The notes beneath the pieces are model-generated. The model had not been told where the DNA came from. It worked only from the letters and a program-made list of their open reading frames with translations, and searched no databases. A stretch of 25,109 nucleotides of DNA, taken from a virus. Position 1 is the stretch's first letter. The number at the start of each line of letters is the position of its first letter. Shown piece after piece: positions 12,791 through 22,601 of this stretch. The DNA lies in the IMG/VR virus record IMGVR_UViG_3300034407_002180, positions 1 to 25,109 of that record. The stretch is one strand, 5' to 3'. The translations under genes were made by a program, and so were the position numbers.

Positions 12791-15727
12791 ATGTCAAATT
12801 TTTCAGGTTTACCTTTTAGAGACTTTGTTAGAAAACAGATTAATGTACGGCAAAAATCTTTAGGAAAGTATACAAAAATACCTTCCCAAGATCTACAACA
12901 TTATACTACTAAAACCCCTTTTTTAAGGTTAGTTAGTTCTGTTAACTTAACTAAAGGAAAAAACATTAAAAACCCAGTACTAGATAAAGTTGCTATGCTT
13001 ACGGGCATACCAGAATCAGAACTAATTGGTAAAAATTTAGCTCAAAGATTTATGCTTCAAGGTGGGGTAGCAGATGATAAAGCTGGGAAAGGATTAAAAG
13101 AAGGATTAAATGATGGTAAATCACTATTTGATGGAGCTTATGGTTGGGGTGGTCCTACAGAAAGAGGATATGTTCCTATGCCTGGTATACTAAATGCTGA
13201 TGTTACTTATTATAATGATGGTGCATTTGCAAAAACCATTATAAACTGTAAAGTATATAGTAAAACTCAATTTGCTCTTTTTGATGTTCTTTATATGAGA
13301 CCTGGTTATACTTGCTTAATGGAGTTTGGCTGGACCCAGTATCTTGACAACAATGGAAAATTAAAAACCCAAGATAACTTTAAAACACCAGCTTTAAAGG
13401 CTGTGTTAGGTGGTGGTAAAACCCAATTTGAAGTGTATGAAGCAATTCAAAAACATAGAACTGAAACAAATGGAAATTATGATGGTGTTTTTGGGAAGGT
13501 TTCAAAATTTAATTGGACCTTAAACACTGATGGGAGTTATAACTGTACTATAGTTTTAACAGCTATGGGGGACTTAATCCAAGCTTTAAAAGTAAACATA
13601 GCATCCCCAAATTTAAAATCAGTAAAAACCTCAGATGTGGGGTTGGCTATGGAGGTTGCTGCTGGTGCTGTAGGACCCTTACCTCCATTAATTGCAAACG
13701 CAAATAAAACCGTTTTAAATAGGGAGTTACTTGATATATATCTTAACAAATCGGATACGGGCACATCTGGTTGGGGAGAGTATGTAGTTAAAAACTATAT
13801 AGGAGTAGAAAATAGTACTGGTAAGTCCCTCCCACCAACTGATTTATCTATCCCTAATTCTATCTATTCACTAACGGGAACAACTACAGATGCCGAAAAT
13901 CCAGTAGGACAATCACCTCAAGTTTTTATTAAATATGGAGCTTTTTTAGCATTTGTTCAATCAAGACTTCTATTATTTAATAGTAAAGATAATTCTCCTA
14001 TATTTTCATTTGATATGAATTTTAAAAATTTAGATAAAGATGAAAATGTAATATTAAAAATGCCCGGAATGTTTTCATCAGATCCTAGGGTATGTCTTAT
14101 TCCTTGGGAAAATTCTATAGTTCCTGAAGGGGGTTTAACAATGCCTGAATCATCTATTAACAAAATTCTTAGTGAATCAGCTTGGTCCTATAGTCAATAT
14201 TTAGGAAGACTTTCCCAAATTTGTATTAATATTAACTTTATTGCAAGTTGTTTAGAAACTGTTCCTGAAGAAAATGGTAAAATAAATTTACTTGCTTTGC
14301 TTAAAGCTATAAATAAAGGAATAATTAAAGCATTAGGGGGGGTTAATTCTTTTGATATAAAACTAGATGATGAAAATCCATCTTTAATTAAATTTATTGA
14401 AGATATACCTCAAAGGAGAGATGATGGTACTAGTAAAGAAGAAGGAACATATACTAGATTTAACATTTTTGGTGTTAAACCTGGTGTAGATGGTTCCTTT
14501 GTTAGAGACATAAATCTAACAGCAGAAATAAGCGACAATTTTGCATCAATGATTGCAATAGGAGCTCAAGCAAGTTCCAACCAAATATCTGAAAATGCAC
14601 TTTCATTTTCGCAATATAGTTCTGGGTTAATTGACAGAGTAATTGAAGAAAAACTAAACCAAGGCCCCAAAGAATCCATAATTGAAGAAGAAGAACAAAT
14701 ACCAAAAACAATAAAAACCAACTGGGAAACAAACATAAACCCTCCAGAAAATAGTTTATTTGTCCAAACTTATGGTGCCTTACAATGGACAGCAGAAACC
14801 CTAGACCCATTAACATCTCATAATTCTACCCATTGTAGTCTAATATTAGGGGAATTAACATCAGAAAAATTCTCAGGAGGACAACAATTACAATCACCTC
14901 AATTCCTACCATTTAATCTTAGTTTAGAAATGGATGGTTTATCCGGAATGAGACTTCGTGAGAAATTTTTAGTAACGGAGGCTGTTTTACCCCCATCATA
15001 TCAAGAAGATTCAATTGATATGCAAATACAAGGTATTAACCATTCAATAAACCCAACAGCATGGCTAACTAAAATTGAAACAATATCAGTACCTGCTGAA
15101 AAACTAGCACCTATTAAAAGACCACCATCACTATCTAGTGAAGTTACGGTTCAAACCGGAGCGGGTGGTGGAAGTGGAGGAGCAGGAAATTCAAATGGTC
15201 CAACATTATTACAAGATCCACCTCCACCTTTAAATCCCTCTAGTATAAATCGTAGAAATGCTATGCAATCTAGTTATAATGGGGTATTTGGTAGAGATGG
15301 GCAAGTATCAGGTATGTGCGCTCAGTGGAGTTGGAATTTAGCTAAAAATTATGTGGAATATTTAAGAGGAAGAGGATTATCAAATCCAAAACAAACCGCT
15401 GGTGGTAATGCTAATCAAAATGGGTATCATAAAAGATTAGTATCTGCAGGGTATACCCAAACAAAAGCAGGAACTAATATATCTAAAGCAAAGTTAAAAA
15501 ATCTTCTTATTACTACGACTTGGGGTTATGGTGATGTTGTAGTATTTTATGGTACGAATGGAAATGGTACTCATACAAAATATGGTCATACTCAAATTTA
15601 TGTAGGAAATATAAATTCATCTAAATGGGCATCATCAAAAAGCACCAACTATAATACACCTTTCCCATATAATAGTAGGAATAGCACAAAATGGGATTAT
15701 TATGTGTTTAGAGCCCCAGCAACCTAA
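12791..15727 (+). CDS. Baseplate hub protein with C-terminal CHAP-type peptidoglycan hydrolase
   Basis: A 978-residue fusion. Residues about 1-785 resemble hub proteins of T4-like marine phages (gp27 role): GVFGKVSKFNWTLN.DGSY.C near 230, and PFNLSLEMDGLSGMRLREKF, LPPSY and SWLTKIE-type elements near 710-770. A Gly-rich, Pro-rich linker spans about 788-825. The last ~150 residues form a CHAP-like domain: GMCAQW with the likely nucleophile Cys843, YGDVVVFYG, YGHTQIYVGN with His933 and Asn940, and a closing WDYYVF.AP. CHAP domains cleave peptide bonds or amide links in peptidoglycan, so this would open the cell wall at the tail tip, the role T4 gives to the gp5 lysozyme domain. Hub assignment is by similarity of pattern; catalysis rests on the Cys/His placement. 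Confidence 0.75.
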   Translation: MSNFSGLPFRDFVRKQINVRQKSLGKYTKIPSQDLQHYTTKTPFLRLVSSVNLTKGKNIKNPVLDKVAMLTGIPESELIGKNLAQRFMLQGGVADDKAGKGLKEGLNDGKSLFDGAYGWGGPTERGYVPMPGILNADVTYYNDGAFAKTIINCKVYSKTQFALFDVLYMRPGYTCLMEFGWTQYLDNNGKLKTQDNFKTPALKAVLGGGKTQFEVYEAIQKHRTETNGNYDGVFGKVSKFNWTLNTDGSYNCTIVLTAMGDLIQALKVNIASPNLKSVKTSDVGLAMEVAAGAVGPLPPLIANANKTVLNRELLDIYLNKSDTGTSGWGEYVVKNYIGVENSTGKSLPPTDLSIPNSIYSLTGTTTDAENPVGQSPQVFIKYGAFLAFVQSRLLLFNSKDNSPIFSFDMNFKNLDKDENVILKMPGMFSSDPRVCLIPWENSIVPEGGLTMPESSINKILSESAWSYSQYLGRLSQICININFIASCLETVPEENGKINLLALLKAINKGIIKALGGVNSFDIKLDDENPSLIKFIEDIPQRRDDGTSKEEGTYTRFNIFGVKPGVDGSFVRDINLTAEISDNFASMIAIGAQASSNQISENALSFSQYSSGLIDRVIEEKLNQGPKESIIEEEEQIPKTIKTNWETNINPPENSLFVQTYGALQWTAETLDPLTSHNSTHCSLILGELTSEKFSGGQQLQSPQFLPFNLSLEMDGLSGMRLREKFLVTEAVLPPSYQEDSIDMQIQGINHSINPTAWLTKIETISVPAEKLAPIKRPPSLSSEVTVQTGAGGGSGGAGNSNGPTLLQDPPPPLNPSSINRRNAMQSSYNGVFGRDGQVSGMCAQWSWNLAKNYVEYLRGRGLSNPKQTAGGNANQNGYHKRLVSAGYTQTKAGTNISKAKLKNLLITTTWGYGDVVVFYGTNGNGTHTKYGHTQIYVGNINSSKWASSKSTNYNTPFPYNSRNSTKWDYYVFRAPAT

Positions 15728-16429: not shown

Positions 16430-16449
16430 TATACCAAAATAAAGGTATA
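16430..16449 (+). promoter_or_regulatory. Hairpin at the DNA polymerase start, possible translational operator
   Basis: TATACC (16430-16435) pairs with GGTATA (16444-16449) around an 8-base loop AAAATAAA; the last stem base is the A of the ATG. Upstream, TTTACC (16405-16410) and TATTAT form a plausible -35/-10 pair with about 16 bases between. A short stem with an 8-base loop at the polymerase start is the form of the T4 gp43 autoregulatory operator, but this could be chance in AT-rich DNA. Confidence 0.35.
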
Positions 16450-17714
16450 TGTTTTGGTTAGTTGAATCGAAGGAACAATTAGATAGGTTTTACAATAGTA
16501 GTTATAAAGAGGCATTTGTTGAAATAATTCCTTATAATGATAAGGTTCACCCTACCCAAAATTCCATATGTGCTGTTTATATTCGCCCGTTACAATCGAC
16601 AAAAGGATTCATTATACCCATCTCGCATAGCGAAACGTTGTCCGTGCATATAGACGATGTAAAACACATACTATCGCAATATAATAGCATATATGTTAGG
16701 GATAAAAAGGAATTTTTACATTATTTTATCTTTAAAACTCTTTATGACATAACACTCAACTCTCCTCCGTATATACAAGAGTATACACAAACACATTCCT
16801 TCTTCTACCATAAGATGGGAGAGAAAAAAGACATAAACCGCATTATTCCGATTGTAAAACACTATGAATATTGTGAGAAATTATTTAATGATTTAAAACC
16901 AAGAATAGATGAGCCAATCAACGACTTTTACAATGAAAAAACCACAGTGGTATTCAACGCCATTGAAAGAAGTGGTATACGAATTGATCGAGAGGAATTC
17001 CAATCGCGTTTTCATGATATCGATGGAGAATACGCCTACACGCAATTCAACTTCAAAACCCTTACAGGAAGACCATCAAATAGATTTAAAGGAGTAAATT
17101 ATGCAGCAATCAATAAAGACAATGGAGACCGAAAGTCTTTCATCCCACGTAATGACATTCTTCTTGAATTGGATATTAGCGCCTATCACCCTACTTTGCT
17201 TTCTCATCTGCTTGATTATGAGTTTGATAGTGGTGATATTCACATGGCCTTTGCTAAAATGTATGGGGTGGAATATGGTAAGGCGAAGGAATTAACTTTT
17301 AAGCAGATGTATGGTGGGGTATTTGATCAATATAAGGAGCTGGAGTTCTTTAAGAAGATGCAAGTATATACTGATGATTTGTGGGCTCGCTTCCAAAATG
17401 AGGGTTCAATTGAATGTCCTGTTTCAAAGCATGTGTTTAAAAAAGAAGAGCTTCATGATATGAAGCCTCAAAAACTATTGAATTATGTTCTTCAAAACTT
17501 GGAGACGGCTACTAACGTTCGTATATTATGGGAAATATTTAAAATATTAAAAGGAAGAAATACTAAGTTAGTACTTTACACATATGATTCATTCCTATTT
17601 GATTTTGATGATAGCGAAAGAGAAATAATAAGAGAAATACTAAATGTATTTAAAATAAATAAGTTACAAATAAAACACAGTTATGGAGAGACATACGATT
17701 TTACAGAATCCTAA
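16449..17714 (+). CDS. Short family A DNA polymerase, thumb-deleted
   Basis: A 421-residue protein with Pol I-type palm and fingers. Motif A is ELDISAYHP (Asp242 = E. coli Pol I Asp705). The O-helix K..(x)F...YGG has Lys280, Phe284 and Tyr288 at the exact +4/+4 spacing of Lys758, Phe762 and Tyr766. Motif C is TYDSFLFD (Asp380 = Asp882, with Tyr-Asp-Ser in place of His-Asp-Glu). TGRPSNRFKGVN (206-217) matches TGRLSS..NLQN. Between IERSGIRID (172-180) and TGR only about 25 residues remain where Pol I has about 110, so the thumb is nearly absent. The N-terminal ~130 residues look like a decayed exonuclease domain with no DxE motif. It probably serves as the replicative polymerase, since no gp43 is visible. 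Whether it is processive alone is unknown. Confidence 0.8.
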   Translation: MFWLVESKEQLDRFYNSSYKEAFVEIIPYNDKVHPTQNSICAVYIRPLQSTKGFIIPISHSETLSVHIDDVKHILSQYNSIYVRDKKEFLHYFIFKTLYDITLNSPPYIQEYTQTHSFFYHKMGEKKDINRIIPIVKHYEYCEKLFNDLKPRIDEPINDFYNEKTTVVFNAIERSGIRIDREEFQSRFHDIDGEYAYTQFNFKTLTGRPSNRFKGVNYAAINKDNGDRKSFIPRNDILLELDISAYHPTLLSHLLDYEFDSGDIHMAFAKMYGVEYGKAKELTFKQMYGGVFDQYKELEFFKKMQVYTDDLWARFQNEGSIECPVSKHVFKKEELHDMKPQKLLNYVLQNLETATNVRILWEIFKILKGRNTKLVLYTYDSFLFDFDDSEREIIREILNVFKINKLQIKHSYGETYDFTES

Positions 17715-17718
17715 TAAT

Positions 17719-18156
17719 ATGTATAAAGTGGACGATTTCCAAGATTTCAACACTTTAAACATAAATGATTTGAACAATAAGTTATTCTGTACGTTTACCA
17801 CTTTAGAAGACCTAGATGGGTTGTTGGAGCGTATTACTACTACATATAATATAATGTATAATAAAATTTTTGTCTTGCATATTAAAAGTAATGATGAGTA
17901 TGTTTGTACATATAATATAGACCAGGGCAACATTAATAATTTACCTTCTAACACTATTATGGTGCATAGAAAAAAAGACTCAAACACATTGTATACTATA
18001 AATGCTTTAAATGAGTTAATTAAAAGACTAAATGGAGGGGTAGTTGATACTCGATTCCCTATAGACTGGCAGCATTATAGAAATACAATATTACTCACAC
18101 AGCATGACGAATTAAAACAACTAAAAACAAAAATATATAAAATTCTTGAAGTATAG
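17719..18156 (+). CDS. Unknown protein between DNA polymerase and SSB genes
   Basis: A 145-residue protein, alpha/beta in character: LDGLLERI helix, YNKIFVLHIKSNDEYVCTYNID strands split by polar turns, NTIMVHRKKDSNTLYTINAL, and RFPIDWQHYRNTILLT near the end. I chose the ATG at 17719, which follows the polymerase stop by 4 bases and has an A-rich leader; an in-frame ATG at 17683 would overlap the polymerase by 32 bases and add 12 residues. I do not recognise the family. Lying between the polymerase and gp32 genes, it is a candidate replisome accessory factor, for example one that compensates for the missing polymerase thumb. That role is a guess from position only. Confidence 0.6.
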   Translation: MYKVDDFQDFNTLNINDLNNKLFCTFTTLEDLDGLLERITTTYNIMYNKIFVLHIKSNDEYVCTYNIDQGNINNLPSNTIMVHRKKDSNTLYTINALNELIKRLNGGVVDTRFPIDWQHYRNTILLTQHDELKQLKTKIYKILEV

Positions 18157-18220: not shown

Positions 18221-19051
18221 ATGGATTTAAACGCAATTAAAAAACGCCTTAATGACATGCAAAGTCAGGCAAACAACCAAGGAGGTCAAAAAACAAATCT
18301 CTTCTGGAAACCCTCAGTAGGAAAACAACTTATTAGAGTTGTCCCTTCAAAGTACAACAAAGATTTCCCATTCACAGAAATGAAATTTTATTATGGAATT
18401 GGAAGCAAACGAGTAATGGCTTCTCCTTCGAATTGGGGTGAGAAAGATCCAATTGAAGAGTTTGCTAAAAAATTACGTAGTACAAATGACAAAGAAAATT
18501 GGAGATTAGCTAAAAAATTAGATGCTAAAGTTCGTACTTTTGCCCCTATTGTAGTTAGAGGTCAGGAAGATGAAGGAGTTAAATTATGGCAATTCGGTAA
18601 AGAAGTTTACCAAGAATTCTTAAATTTAGCTGCTGATGATGAAATTGGTGATTTTACTGATATCGTTCAAGGTAGAGATATTAAATTATCAACAGTAGGA
18701 CCAGAATCAACTGGAACTCCTTACAATAAGACTTCAATTGGTCCTTCTCTAAAACAAACTCAACTTGCAGATACAGAAGATGCAATTAAGCAACTTTTAG
18801 AAAATCAAGCAGATCCTATGAAGGTATTTAAACCACTTACTTATGATGAGATGAAAGCTTCATTGCAAGAATGGTTATCACCAGAAGGAGAAGAAGAGGA
18901 AGGTTCAATTGTTAAAGAACCAGCAGTTGCTTTTGATAGTCAACCAAAATCAAATTATTCTTTAGATACTAAACCTGCTAAGCAGACTAAAGCAGATAAA
19001 TTTGATGATTTATTTGGAGACGATAACAAAACCGACGATTTACCCTTTTAA
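18221..19051 (+). CDS. gp32: Single-stranded DNA-binding protein (gp32-like)
   Basis: A 276-residue T4 gp32-type SSB (T4: 301). It coats single strands during replication and recombination and works with UvsX and the helicase. Landmarks: the basic N-terminus MDLNAIKKRL for cooperative binding, the core FWKPSVGKQLIRVVP (residues 28-42), F.EMKFYYGIG, and WQFGKEVYQEFL near 124, then a long acidic linker and tail (EGEEEEG near 220, DDLFGDD and final DDLPF). The protein has no cysteine, so the zinc site of T4 gp32 is absent. The last five residues copy the bacterial SSB tip (DDDIPF type) that binds host repair and replication partners. It sits directly upstream of uvsX, 10 bases apart, in the expected functional cluster. 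Confidence 0.92.
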   Translation: MDLNAIKKRLNDMQSQANNQGGQKTNLFWKPSVGKQLIRVVPSKYNKDFPFTEMKFYYGIGSKRVMASPSNWGEKDPIEEFAKKLRSTNDKENWRLAKKLDAKVRTFAPIVVRGQEDEGVKLWQFGKEVYQEFLNLAADDEIGDFTDIVQGRDIKLSTVGPESTGTPYNKTSIGPSLKQTQLADTEDAIKQLLENQADPMKVFKPLTYDEMKASLQEWLSPEGEEEEGSIVKEPAVAFDSQPKSNYSLDTKPAKQTKADKFDDLFGDDNKTDDLPF

Positions 19052-19061
19052 CAAATAAAAC

Positions 19062-20138
19062 ATGGCAAGACCAAAAAAATCACTATCGGAGGCAGTCTCC
19101 TCAGAAATTAAATCCAAATTCAATCTAGATGGGTTTAAAACTAAGAAGGGACTGTCTTCAAAAGCAAAATTTAAAGAACAAACATGGATACCTTTATCTA
19201 AGGCATACCAGGAAATTACTTCGGTACCTGGTATTCCTCAAGGTCATATTGTATTACTTAGAGGACACTCTGATACTGGTAAAACCACAGCAATGATTGA
19301 AGGAGCTGTCTCGGCTCAAAAACGAGGAATACTACCAGTATTTATTATTACAGAGATGAAATGGTCTTGGGAACACGCCAAGATGATGGGTCTAGAAATT
19401 AATGAGGTTATAGATGAAGAAACAGGTGAAGTCATTGATTATAATGGTAACTTTATTTATGTAGATAGAGAAACTATTAACTCAATTGAAGATGTATCTA
19501 GCTTTATCTTAGATTTAATTGATGAACAGAAAAATGGTAATTTACCATATGATTTAATGTTCTGTTGGGATTCAATTGGGTCTGTACCGTGTGAAATGTC
19601 GTTAAAATCAAATAAAAATAATAACGAATGGAATGCGGGTGCTATGTCTACCCAATTTGGTAATAACGTAAACCAACGCATCGTTATGTCTCGAAAAGAA
19701 AGTAGCCCTTACACAAATACTCTAGTTTGTATTAATAAGGTATGGACTTTGAAAGCAGAATCTCCTATGGGTCAACCTAAATTAATGAATAAAGGAGGAT
19801 ACGCTATGTGGTTTGATTCAACATTTGTAGTAACATTTGGTAATGTAATGTCAGCTGGAACATCTAAAATTAAAGCAATTAAGGATGGTAAGCAAGTAGA
19901 GTTTGCTAAACGTACAAATCTTCAAATTGATAAAAACCACATTAATGGGGTTACAACACGGGGAAAAATTGTTATGACACCTCATGGTTTTATTCTGGAT
20001 GATGATAAAGCTTTAAAACAGTATAAAAATGAACAAGCTGAAACTTGGAAAAAAATTCTAGGTGGTAGCGATTTCATAATTGCTGAAGAAAATGAAGCTT
20101 ATACTGACATCACAGCTCATACAGATGAGCCCAAATAA
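19062..20138 (+). CDS. uvsX: UvsX recombinase (RecA family)
   Basis: A 358-residue recombinase that forms filaments on single-stranded DNA and drives strand exchange and recombination-dependent replication. The Walker A motif GHSDTGKT spans residues 68-75 and Walker B ends at Asp170 in DLMFCWDSIGS. The following segment rich in Asn and Gln (NNEWNAGAMSTQFGNN) matches the DNA-binding loop region, and MWFDSTFVVTFG the core beta strand. Length is close to T4 UvsX (391). It begins 10 bases after the gp32 gene. A hairpin that may end the transcript follows at 20153-20176. No UvsY was seen in the window. Confidence 0.94.
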   Translation: MARPKKSLSEAVSSEIKSKFNLDGFKTKKGLSSKAKFKEQTWIPLSKAYQEITSVPGIPQGHIVLLRGHSDTGKTTAMIEGAVSAQKRGILPVFIITEMKWSWEHAKMMGLEINEVIDEETGEVIDYNGNFIYVDRETINSIEDVSSFILDLIDEQKNGNLPYDLMFCWDSIGSVPCEMSLKSNKNNNEWNAGAMSTQFGNNVNQRIVMSRKESSPYTNTLVCINKVWTLKAESPMGQPKLMNKGGYAMWFDSTFVVTFGNVMSAGTSKIKAIKDGKQVEFAKRTNLQIDKNHINGVTTRGKIVMTPHGFILDDDKALKQYKNEQAETWKKILGGSDFIIAEENEAYTDITAHTDEPK

Positions 20139-20190: not shown

Positions 20191-21219
20191 ATGAAACATA
20201 AAGATTTACTTAATCTCCTCGACAGCGTCGATGAGCAAGGAAAAGAGACTGTAGAAGGAGAAAGAATTTTAATGATTGATGGGTTAAACCTATTTTTTAG
20301 AAATTTTGCAATTCTTAATATGGTTAATCCTGATGGAGTTCACATTGGAGGTTTAGGTGGGTTTTTTCGCTCATTAGGTGCTATGATTAGACAAATGCAG
20401 CCAACCCAAGTTTATGTAGTATTTGATGGAGCCGGTTCTGCTAATAATAGAAAAAACCTACTCCCTGAATATAAATCAGGTAGAGATCTTCAACGTATTA
20501 CTAATTGGGATGCCTTTGATGATAAAGATGATGAGGATGATGCTAAAATAGACCAAATGGTTCGTATTATTCAATATCTAAAAACATTACCTGTTAAGGT
20601 AGTAACATTAGATAAAGTAGAAGCTGATGATATTATTGCTTATTTAAGTGAGACTACTCCTACAAAGAAAGAAGATAAAGTATTTATAGTGTCTTCAGAC
20701 AAGGATTTCCTCCAACTAATAAATGAGAATGTTATTGTATATCGCCCTATGGAAAAAGAATACTATACTACAGATACAATGGAGGAAAAATTTAAAATGT
20801 CTCCTAATAATTTTATCCTATATAAAACATTAATGGGGGATAATTCAGATAAAGTTAAAGGTATTAAAGGGTTAGGACCTAAAAAATTGTATAAGCTATT
20901 CCCTGAATTAACTGAACGAGATATAACACTAGAAGATATATATCAAATAAGTGAAGAAAAATTTAAAGAAAATGTAATATATGCTCGCATCATTCAAAAT
21001 TGGTCATCTATAGAAACTAACCATAAAATTATGGATTTATCTAAACCCATGATTGATAAAAATGATGAAAATTATTTAGATGAGGTTGTTAAATCAAAAG
21101 ACATTCATTATCTTCCCGACCAGTTTGTATCTATGTACAATACAGATCAATTAGGAGGAATAATTAGAAATGTAGAGTATTGGGTAAAAGATTGTTTTGA
21201 ATCACTACAAATAAAGTAA
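20191..21219 (+). CDS. rnh: 5'-3' exonuclease / flap nuclease (T4 RNase H type)
   Basis: A 342-residue member of the FEN/5'-nuclease family, removing RNA primers and 5' flaps from lagging-strand fragments. Metal-binding acidic residues are in place: Asp30 (LMIDGLN), Asp79 (VVFDG), Glu144/Asp146/Asp147 (VEADDI), Asp170/Asp172 (SSDKDF) and Asp217/Asp220 (GDNSDKVKG). The helix-hairpin-helix KGIKGLGPKKLYKLF follows at about 223-237. Length is near T4 RNase H (305), with a 25-residue N-terminal extension and an acidic insertion (about 108-120). Since the family A polymerase has no fused 5' nuclease domain, this separate protein supplies that activity. The helicase gene follows after 20 bases. Confidence 0.92.
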   Translation: MKHKDLLNLLDSVDEQGKETVEGERILMIDGLNLFFRNFAILNMVNPDGVHIGGLGGFFRSLGAMIRQMQPTQVYVVFDGAGSANNRKNLLPEYKSGRDLQRITNWDAFDDKDDEDDAKIDQMVRIIQYLKTLPVKVVTLDKVEADDIIAYLSETTPTKKEDKVFIVSSDKDFLQLINENVIVYRPMEKEYYTTDTMEEKFKMSPNNFILYKTLMGDNSDKVKGIKGLGPKKLYKLFPELTERDITLEDIYQISEEKFKENVIYARIIQNWSSIETNHKIMDLSKPMIDKNDENYLDEVVKSKDIHYLPDQFVSMYNTDQLGGIIRNVEYWVKDCFESLQIK

Positions 21220-21239: not shown

Positions 21240-22601
21240 ATGACATTAACCAGTTTAAATCAGTATGGTCCACACTTTCAAACAAAAGTGTTATCTTCAC
21301 TATTAACTCATAAAGAGTTTCTAGTTAACATTCATGATATTTTAAGTGAAGAATATTTTGATAATCAAGCACATCAATGGATTATCCAAGAAATTCTAAA
21401 ATATTACGATAAATATCATACAACTCCTTCAATGGAGATCCTAAAAATTAAAGTACAAAAAACTGAAAATGAAGTACTAAAATTATCAATTAAAGAACAA
21501 TTAAAAGCTGCATACCAATCATCAGATGAAGATTTAGAATATGTGCAAGAAGAATTTTCAACATTTTGTAAAAACCAACAATTAAAGAAAGCATTACTTA
21601 ACAGTGTTGATTTATTGAAAGCTGGTGATTTTGATGGTATTAAATTCTTAGTAGAATCAGCATTAAAAGCAGGTAATGACAAAAATGTAGGACATGAATA
21701 TAATAAAGATATAGAATCTCGATTTAGAGAAGATGCTAGAACCACAATTGCAACTCCTTGGGATAAAGTTAATGATATACTTCAAGGTGGGTTAGGAAAT
21801 GGTGATTTTGGGTTGATATTTGGTAACCCGGGAGGTGGTAAATCATGGTCATTAGTAGCATTAGGAGGATATGCTGTAAGGATGGGGTTTAATGTTTTAC
21901 ATTATACTTTAGAATTAGGAGAACAGTATGTTGGAAGACGATATGATGCTTTTTTCTCCAAAATACCTGTAGACCAAGTTCTTCAAAATAGAGGAAAAAT
22001 AGAAGAAATTCTACCTGAACTACCAGGTGAGTTAATTATTAAAGAGTTCCCTACAGGGAGAGCTACAATTTCAACGATAGAATCACATATTCAAAAAGTT
22101 GAAAGTATGGGAATTAAAGCAGATTTAATTATAATTGATTATGTAGATCTTCTTTCAACAAAGAAACGAACAGCAGATCGTAAAGGAGAAATTGATGATA
22201 TTTATACAAGCACTAAAGGATTAGCCCGCGAATTAGATGTACCTATTTGGTCAGTTTCTCAAGTTAATCGTGCAGGTGCAAAAGATGATGTTATCGAAGG
22301 TGATAAGGCAGCAGGGTCATATGATAAAATTATGATTACTGACTTCTGCTTATCTCTTTCAAGAAAAGCTAAAGATAAAGTAAACGGAACTGGAAGATTC
22401 CATATTATGAAAAATAGATATGGAATGGATGGTTTAACTTTTGGAGTTAAAGCAGATACTTCAACAGGACATTTCGATGTTATCGACTACAATCCTGATG
22501 ATTATGAATCTGAAGAACCCCAAGCATCTAAAAGCTATGATAATTTTGATAGTTTTGATAAACAAACATTGAAAAATAAGTTTTTTGAATTAAATTCATA
22601 A
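21240..22601 (+). CDS. gp41: Replicative DNA helicase (DnaB/gp41-like)
   Basis: A 453-residue hexameric 5'-3' helicase (T4 gp41: 475). The N-terminal ~140 residues form the helical DnaB-type domain. The RecA-like motor has Walker A GNPGGGKS at 195-202, the LHYTLELGE segment with the catalytic Glu near 225, Walker B LIIIDYVDLL with Asp300, the sensor SVSQVNR near 330 and an Arg-rich DFCLSLSRKAKD region near 365. The C-terminus is acidic and polar (YNPDDYESEEPQ), possibly a primase- or SSB-interaction tail. No primase is encoded within the window. It is co-oriented with rnh and nrdB, with 20-base gaps and A-rich leaders, indicating one operon. Confidence 0.94.
   Translation: MTLTSLNQYGPHFQTKVLSSLLTHKEFLVNIHDILSEEYFDNQAHQWIIQEILKYYDKYHTTPSMEILKIKVQKTENEVLKLSIKEQLKAAYQSSDEDLEYVQEEFSTFCKNQQLKKALLNSVDLLKAGDFDGIKFLVESALKAGNDKNVGHEYNKDIESRFREDARTTIATPWDKVNDILQGGLGNGDFGLIFGNPGGGKSWSLVALGGYAVRMGFNVLHYTLELGEQYVGRRYDAFFSKIPVDQVLQNRGKIEEILPELPGELIIKEFPTGRATISTIESHIQKVESMGIKADLIIIDYVDLLSTKKRTADRKGEIDDIYTSTKGLARELDVPIWSVSQVNRAGAKDDVIEGDKAAGSYDKIMITDFCLSLSRKAKDKVNGTGRFHIMKNRYGMDGLTFGVKADTSTGHFDVIDYNPDDYESEEPQASKSYDNFDSFDKQTLKNKFFELNS

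Follow-up and report, generated by a model that had tools for sequence, protein, structure and literature searches.

Family A DNA polymerases with a truncated thumb, an inactivated exonuclease domain and an intact palm were named divPolA1 by Yutin et al. in 2024, with gp001 of Flavobacterium phage immuto as the named representative (PMC11348598). Its authors note that, in several genomes, divPolA1 lies among genes of a more replicative character than those around the regular polymerases. The same source describes divPolA2 (Vibrio phage AUR84708), which is likewise a thumbless phage PolA found beside a regular polymerase but differs in having no exonuclease domain, an unrelated N-terminal domain and a variable gene context. 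Our literature search found no biochemical data on any divPolA1, and the term was met only in Yutin et al. (2024) and its preprint. In E. coli Pol I, Glu710 blocks ribonucleotides and is highly conserved among PolA enzymes (PMC9324360).

We analysed a 25,109-base stretch of phage DNA, referred to below as the window, in which a sequence-only reading had recognized a minimal family A polymerase. The gene was present at exactly the limits assigned to it (Table 1), encodes 421 amino acids, and proved to be a genuine family A polymerase reading frame. Its product aligned with immuto gp001 at 38.6% identity across 95% of the length (E 4e-84), and the two have in common full-length homology, the truncated thumb, the lost exonuclease acids and the intact palm. 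Sequence comparison places the window protein in divPolA1, which occurs in T4-like phages of water bacteria. Because the earlier description matches this published, uncharacterised family, the surprise it contained is already on record; the thumbless, exonuclease-dead kind was published in 2024, and the window protein adds another sequence to the family.

The window protein alone matched no Pfam family, PF00476 included, and gave only a weak match to the PHROG family "DNA polymerase I" (E 0.013). However, PF00476 (DNA_pol_A) was matched by 17 of 21 aligned family members (best 4.6e-11), and the family profile found the Klenow fragment with co-linear motifs (E 4.6e-4). The AlphaFold2 model, built from 87 aligned sequences (pLDDT 94.5, pTM 0.91), matched Klenow-type structures in Foldseek with a best E of 3e-17, and E. 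coli Pol I with a TM score of 0.75 over the query (E 7e-17). The family A assignment is thus firm on the profile and fold matches of the relatives and the model, although the single sequence escapes Pfam. All 279 full-length relatives were 400-476 amino acids long and pairwise dN/dS of the polymerase was approximately 0.08-0.19, which rules out a decaying gene or an artefact; the product is a polymerase fold under purifying selection.

The structure prediction and Klenow comparison proposed in the sequence-only reading gave a Klenow-type fold without a thumb. Thirty-three residues separate Glu173 of the ER motif from Thr206 of TGR, whereas 125 lie between Glu541 and Thr666 of E. coli Pol I; the short span had been put at about 25 residues against about 110, the counting points being slightly different. 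In the model, a helix at residues 181-187 runs into a strand at residues 199-201 with no long thumb helices between them, so that both the short link and the absence of long helices in it bear out the missing thumb, which is truncated as in divPolA1. The ER-to-TGR spacing was 21-39 residues in all 162 non-redundant relatives, and the constancy of spacing and length indicates that the shortness is shared by all members and did not arise by truncation of the window copy. The decay of the exonuclease domain was likewise confirmed: the exonuclease-type order of strands and helices is kept in the N-terminus (AlphaFold2 model, Foldseek), but the first exonuclease strand has no conserved acid, position 25 being Glu in 72, Ile in 31 and Asp in 30 of the 162 members. 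The domain is therefore kept with its catalytic Asp replaced, as described for divPolA1, the equivalence of motifs II and III being judged by eye.

Table 1. Features of the polymerase gene and the genes downstream of it in the window.
Feature	Position	Strand	Evidence
divPolA1-family polymerase, 421 aa	16449..17714	+	motifs, model, Foldseek, 39% identity to immuto gp001
N-terminal RNase H-like (3'-5' exonuclease-type) domain, residues ~1-154, without conserved catalytic acids	16449..16910	+	strand/helix order in model; boundary approximate
33-residue link replacing the 125-residue Pol I thumb region, residues 173-206 (ER-SGIRID to TGR)	16965..17066	+	alignment, model
Motif A, D242-I-S-A-Y-H247	17172..17189	+	profile alignment to Klenow, hhalign to immuto gp199, His in 162/162
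Motif B (O helix), Y276...K280...F284...Y288	17274..17312	+	Klenow alignment, family conservation
Motif C, Y377-T-Y-D380-S-F-L-F-D385	17577..17603	+	family conservation
Partner protein, 145 aa (157 aa if earlier ATG at 17683)	17719..18156	+	no family match, confident alpha/beta fold, co-occurrence
gp32-like single-strand DNA-binding protein	18221..19051	+	PF08804 4.6e-16
UvsX-like recombinase	19062..20138	+	phrog_97 2.1e-12; 63% to immuto recombinase
5'-3' exonuclease (flap/RNase H type)	20191..21219	+	PF02739 3.9e-35
DnaB/gp41-like replicative helicase	21240..22601	+	phrog_19 3.9e-81

The palm retains both catalytic aspartates, and Asp242, Asp380, Lys280, Phe284 and Tyr288 were all as the sequence-only reading had listed them. 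All 162 non-redundant members keep Asp242, Asp380, Tyr288 (Pol I Tyr766) and Arg208 (Pol I Arg668), together with Gln349 (Pol I Gln849), Glu352, Asn217 and His247; Phe284 was found in 161, as was Lys280, its sole exception being an unread residue. The replacement of HDE by YDS also holds, the third position being Ala or Ser throughout the family. The window protein thus shares with the Klenow fragment the fold, motifs A, B and C, the TGR arginine and the Gln849 equivalent, whereas Klenow has a thumb and an active 3'-5' exonuclease, and Glu710, Arg754 and Glu883 of Klenow correspond to His247, Tyr276 and Ser381. Tyr276 stands for Arg754 in 149 of the 162 members. In the gap-free profile alignment to Klenow, Asp242 pairs with Asp705 and His247 with Glu710, placing an invariant His (162/162) at the steric-gate position of Pol I as judged by alignment. 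The hhalign comparison of the family with the full-length PolA of immuto was not significant (probability 0.1%), and its residue pairing was consistent with that of His247 and Glu710. Glu is kept at the steric gate in the full-length PolA of immuto (DYTSLE) and in divPolA2 (YDFKAFE), the latter indicating that the change to His in divPolA1 is not common to thumbless PolAs in general. Neither a steric-gate His nor an obligate partner is mentioned in the text of Yutin et al. (2024) (PMC11348598).

As in immuto, the polymerase gene heads a replication cluster, followed by genes for the 145-residue partner, ssb, uvsX, the 5'-3' exonuclease, DnaB, NrdB and NrdA. Wherever 3 kb or more of sequence followed divPolA1, the partner was present (203 of 203 loci); conversely, all 89 loci in which 4 kb or more preceded the partner contained divPolA1. 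A search of 50,697 phage records found the partner in exactly the six that carry divPolA1 over at least two-thirds of the query. Where both genes were on the same strand, the partner lay no more than 100 bases downstream of divPolA1 in 215 of 276 cases. The partner family matched nothing in Pfam or PHROG apart from scattered weak matches of a few members. The partner model was a confident alpha/beta fold (pLDDT 89.3) with no Foldseek match in the PDB at E 0.001. Below this threshold, domains of the origin-binding or Rep-like kind recurred among the matches at E 0.2-0.7 (SV40 T-antigen OBD, CRESS Rep, adomavirus helicase), which we regard as a lead only. The constant presence of this neighbour lends circumstantial support to the suggestion that a separate protein helps the polymerase to grip DNA; co-occurrence within one phage lineage is no proof of interaction, as both genes may just belong to the core set of that lineage.

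The sequence-only reading had also held that this enzyme is the replicative polymerase and replaces the family B gp43 of T4-like phages, an idea that a second full-length polymerase in the genome would contradict. No other polymerase was seen in the window, which is a 25,109-base fragment of the genome. We therefore surveyed 22 records from relatives, each 75 kb or longer and carrying divPolA1 or the partner gene, and 21 of them encode a regular polymerase elsewhere; the exception was a 120-kb record (G024), in which none was seen. The regular polymerase was PolB in most and full-length PolA in immuto, G035, G036, G037 and G042, so that its family varies among relatives in which divPolA1 is constant. 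The two long relatives closest to the window both carry a split gp43-like PolB: G030 (164 kb), with a divPolA1 74% identical to that of the window and PolB in two ORFs, and G023 (158 kb), with a 70% identical divPolA1, the gene order of the window and PolB in two ORFs (phrog_262). The clamp genes looked for along with PolB were found in G023, which encodes a gp44-like clamp loader (phrog_168), a gp45-like clamp (phrog_223) and a DnaG-like primase (phrog_47). Judged from its gene content, G023 has a T4-like replisome beside the thumbless enzyme, with the split PolB and the gp44/gp45-like genes as counterparts of the T4 gp43 replisome. The presence of a regular polymerase in these records argues that divPolA1 does not replace gp43, to which it is unrelated and with which it coexists; a role as sole replicative polymerase was rejected, as PolB or full-length PolA is present in relatives including G030 and G023. 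Of the earlier reading, a family A polymerase without a thumb and with a dead exonuclease in a T4-like phage thus stands, and the replicative, gp43-replacing role is unsupported. The window shares the downstream cluster with immuto, and in relatives divPolA1 coexists with a regular polymerase.

The split PolB of G023 (L172 9170-11769) has parallels in G013, G016, G025, G027, G030 and G034, with one ORF of 556-584 aa (exonuclease, motifs A and B) and another of 310-324 aa (motif C, YSDTDS), and more distant relatives have a single ORF of 835-880 aa. A search among the relatives for a DNA polymerase III alpha-type polymerase found it only in the 484-kb LR756508 (L063, uncultured phage), where divPolA1 and the partner occur alongside ORFs resembling PolB and DNA polymerase III alpha.

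Beyond a polymerase fold lacking the thumb and proofreading residues, what we say of the role of divPolA1 is inferred. We give about an even chance to divPolA1 being an accessory polymerase that is active but does not proofread, and that synthesizes short patches during lagging-strand maturation or UvsX recombination. A family A polymerase that lost its thumb and proofreading residues would carry out short-patch synthesis of low processivity, closing the gaps that the 5'-3' exonuclease encoded nearby leaves during Okazaki-fragment maturation and/or extending 3' ends made by the UvsX recombinase. The 145-residue partner or gp32 may supply the DNA contact normally given by the thumb, and a separate PolB or full-length PolA would serve the main fork; PolB was observed in the relatives and presumably acts there as the replicase. 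The invariant catalytic residues and the low dN/dS suggest that divPolA1 is active. The regular polymerase in 21 of 22 records, together with the clamp, clamp loader and primase of G023, points to an accessory role, and the gene order from the polymerase to the helicase, common to the window and immuto, suggests a link to recombination or lagging-strand synthesis. The present evidence fits either gap filling or recombination synthesis.

That divPolA1 could instead be the main replicase, with the partner as its thumb and processivity factor and the "regular" polymerase as the accessory enzyme, seems unlikely. A larger role would fit the more replicative neighbourhood of divPolA1, which, according to Yutin et al. 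(2024), lies in a conserved replication cluster while regular polymerases lie in variable neighbourhoods (PMC11348598), and G024 showed no regular polymerase. However, the other 21 records did, the PolB of G023 has retained an exonuclease domain and is encoded close to the clamp and clamp loader, and a thumbless, non-proofreading enzyme would presumably be a poor replicase for 160-kb genomes. The same two losses might give an open, tolerant enzyme, and divPolA1 is linked to UvsX and ssb, as could be expected of a translesion or repair polymerase acting on damaged phage DNA and unconnected to lagging-strand or recombination steps; this is still less probable, as nothing damage-specific was seen and the constancy of the partner and of the close position in the replication cluster, even between very distant phages, suggests a core and not a conditional role. 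A catalytically dead structural or regulatory protein, which could be imagined from a divergence so great that Pfam misses the window protein, is very improbable given the purifying selection and the invariant or near-invariant metal-binding Asp pair and nucleotide-binding Lys, Phe and Tyr.

A relaxed or changed sugar selection, in which His in place of Glu710 allows ribonucleotide addition or the start or extension of RNA-containing primers in the manner of Pol alpha, appears rather unlikely. It would fit the invariance of His247 at the position that blocks ribonucleotides in Pol I (PMC9324360) and the Glu kept in divPolA2; but the bulk of His may be enough to keep the 2'-OH out, and the position of His247 rests on a sequence-profile alignment. 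Nor is a primase missing, since a DnaG-like one is annotated in immuto and Mel-JY01 and was found in G023, which also makes a primase role for the thumbless PolA less likely. We also consider it rather unlikely that divPolA1 and the partner make up a polymerase of two subunits, the partner taking the place of the thumb and the His steric gate conferring a sugar selectivity that sets the enzyme apart from the rest of family A, such as tolerance of ribonucleotides in synthesis at primers or recombination ends. What may give divPolA1 importance is that it belongs to the core of a large group of T4-like phages from marine and fresh waters, that the residue by which dNTPs are told from rNTPs is invariantly changed in it, and that it always occurs with a small protein whose fold matched no family.

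Seven contigs from bacterial genomes contained a divPolA1 relative, all of them in MAGs; the closest was in a Flavobacteriales MAG and others were in Winogradskyella and Flavobacteriaceae MAGs. The contigs are probably of phage origin and were binned with the MAGs, but taken with immuto they suggest that the nearest relatives infect Bacteroidota. Beside the regular polymerase, QueC, QueD, QueE, QueF, FolE and DpdA are annotated in immuto (L060 18607-37015), and QueE-, QueD-, QueC- and FolE-like ORFs, recognized by eye, adjoin it in G023 (L172 12325-18379). The position of these queuosine/7-deazaguanine genes suggests that DNA in the divPolA1 lineage may be modified. Elsewhere in the window (12791-15727), a 978-aa baseplate-region protein ends, after a Gly-rich linker, in approximately 150 residues that were read by eye as a separate domain of cysteine-peptidase/amidase type.
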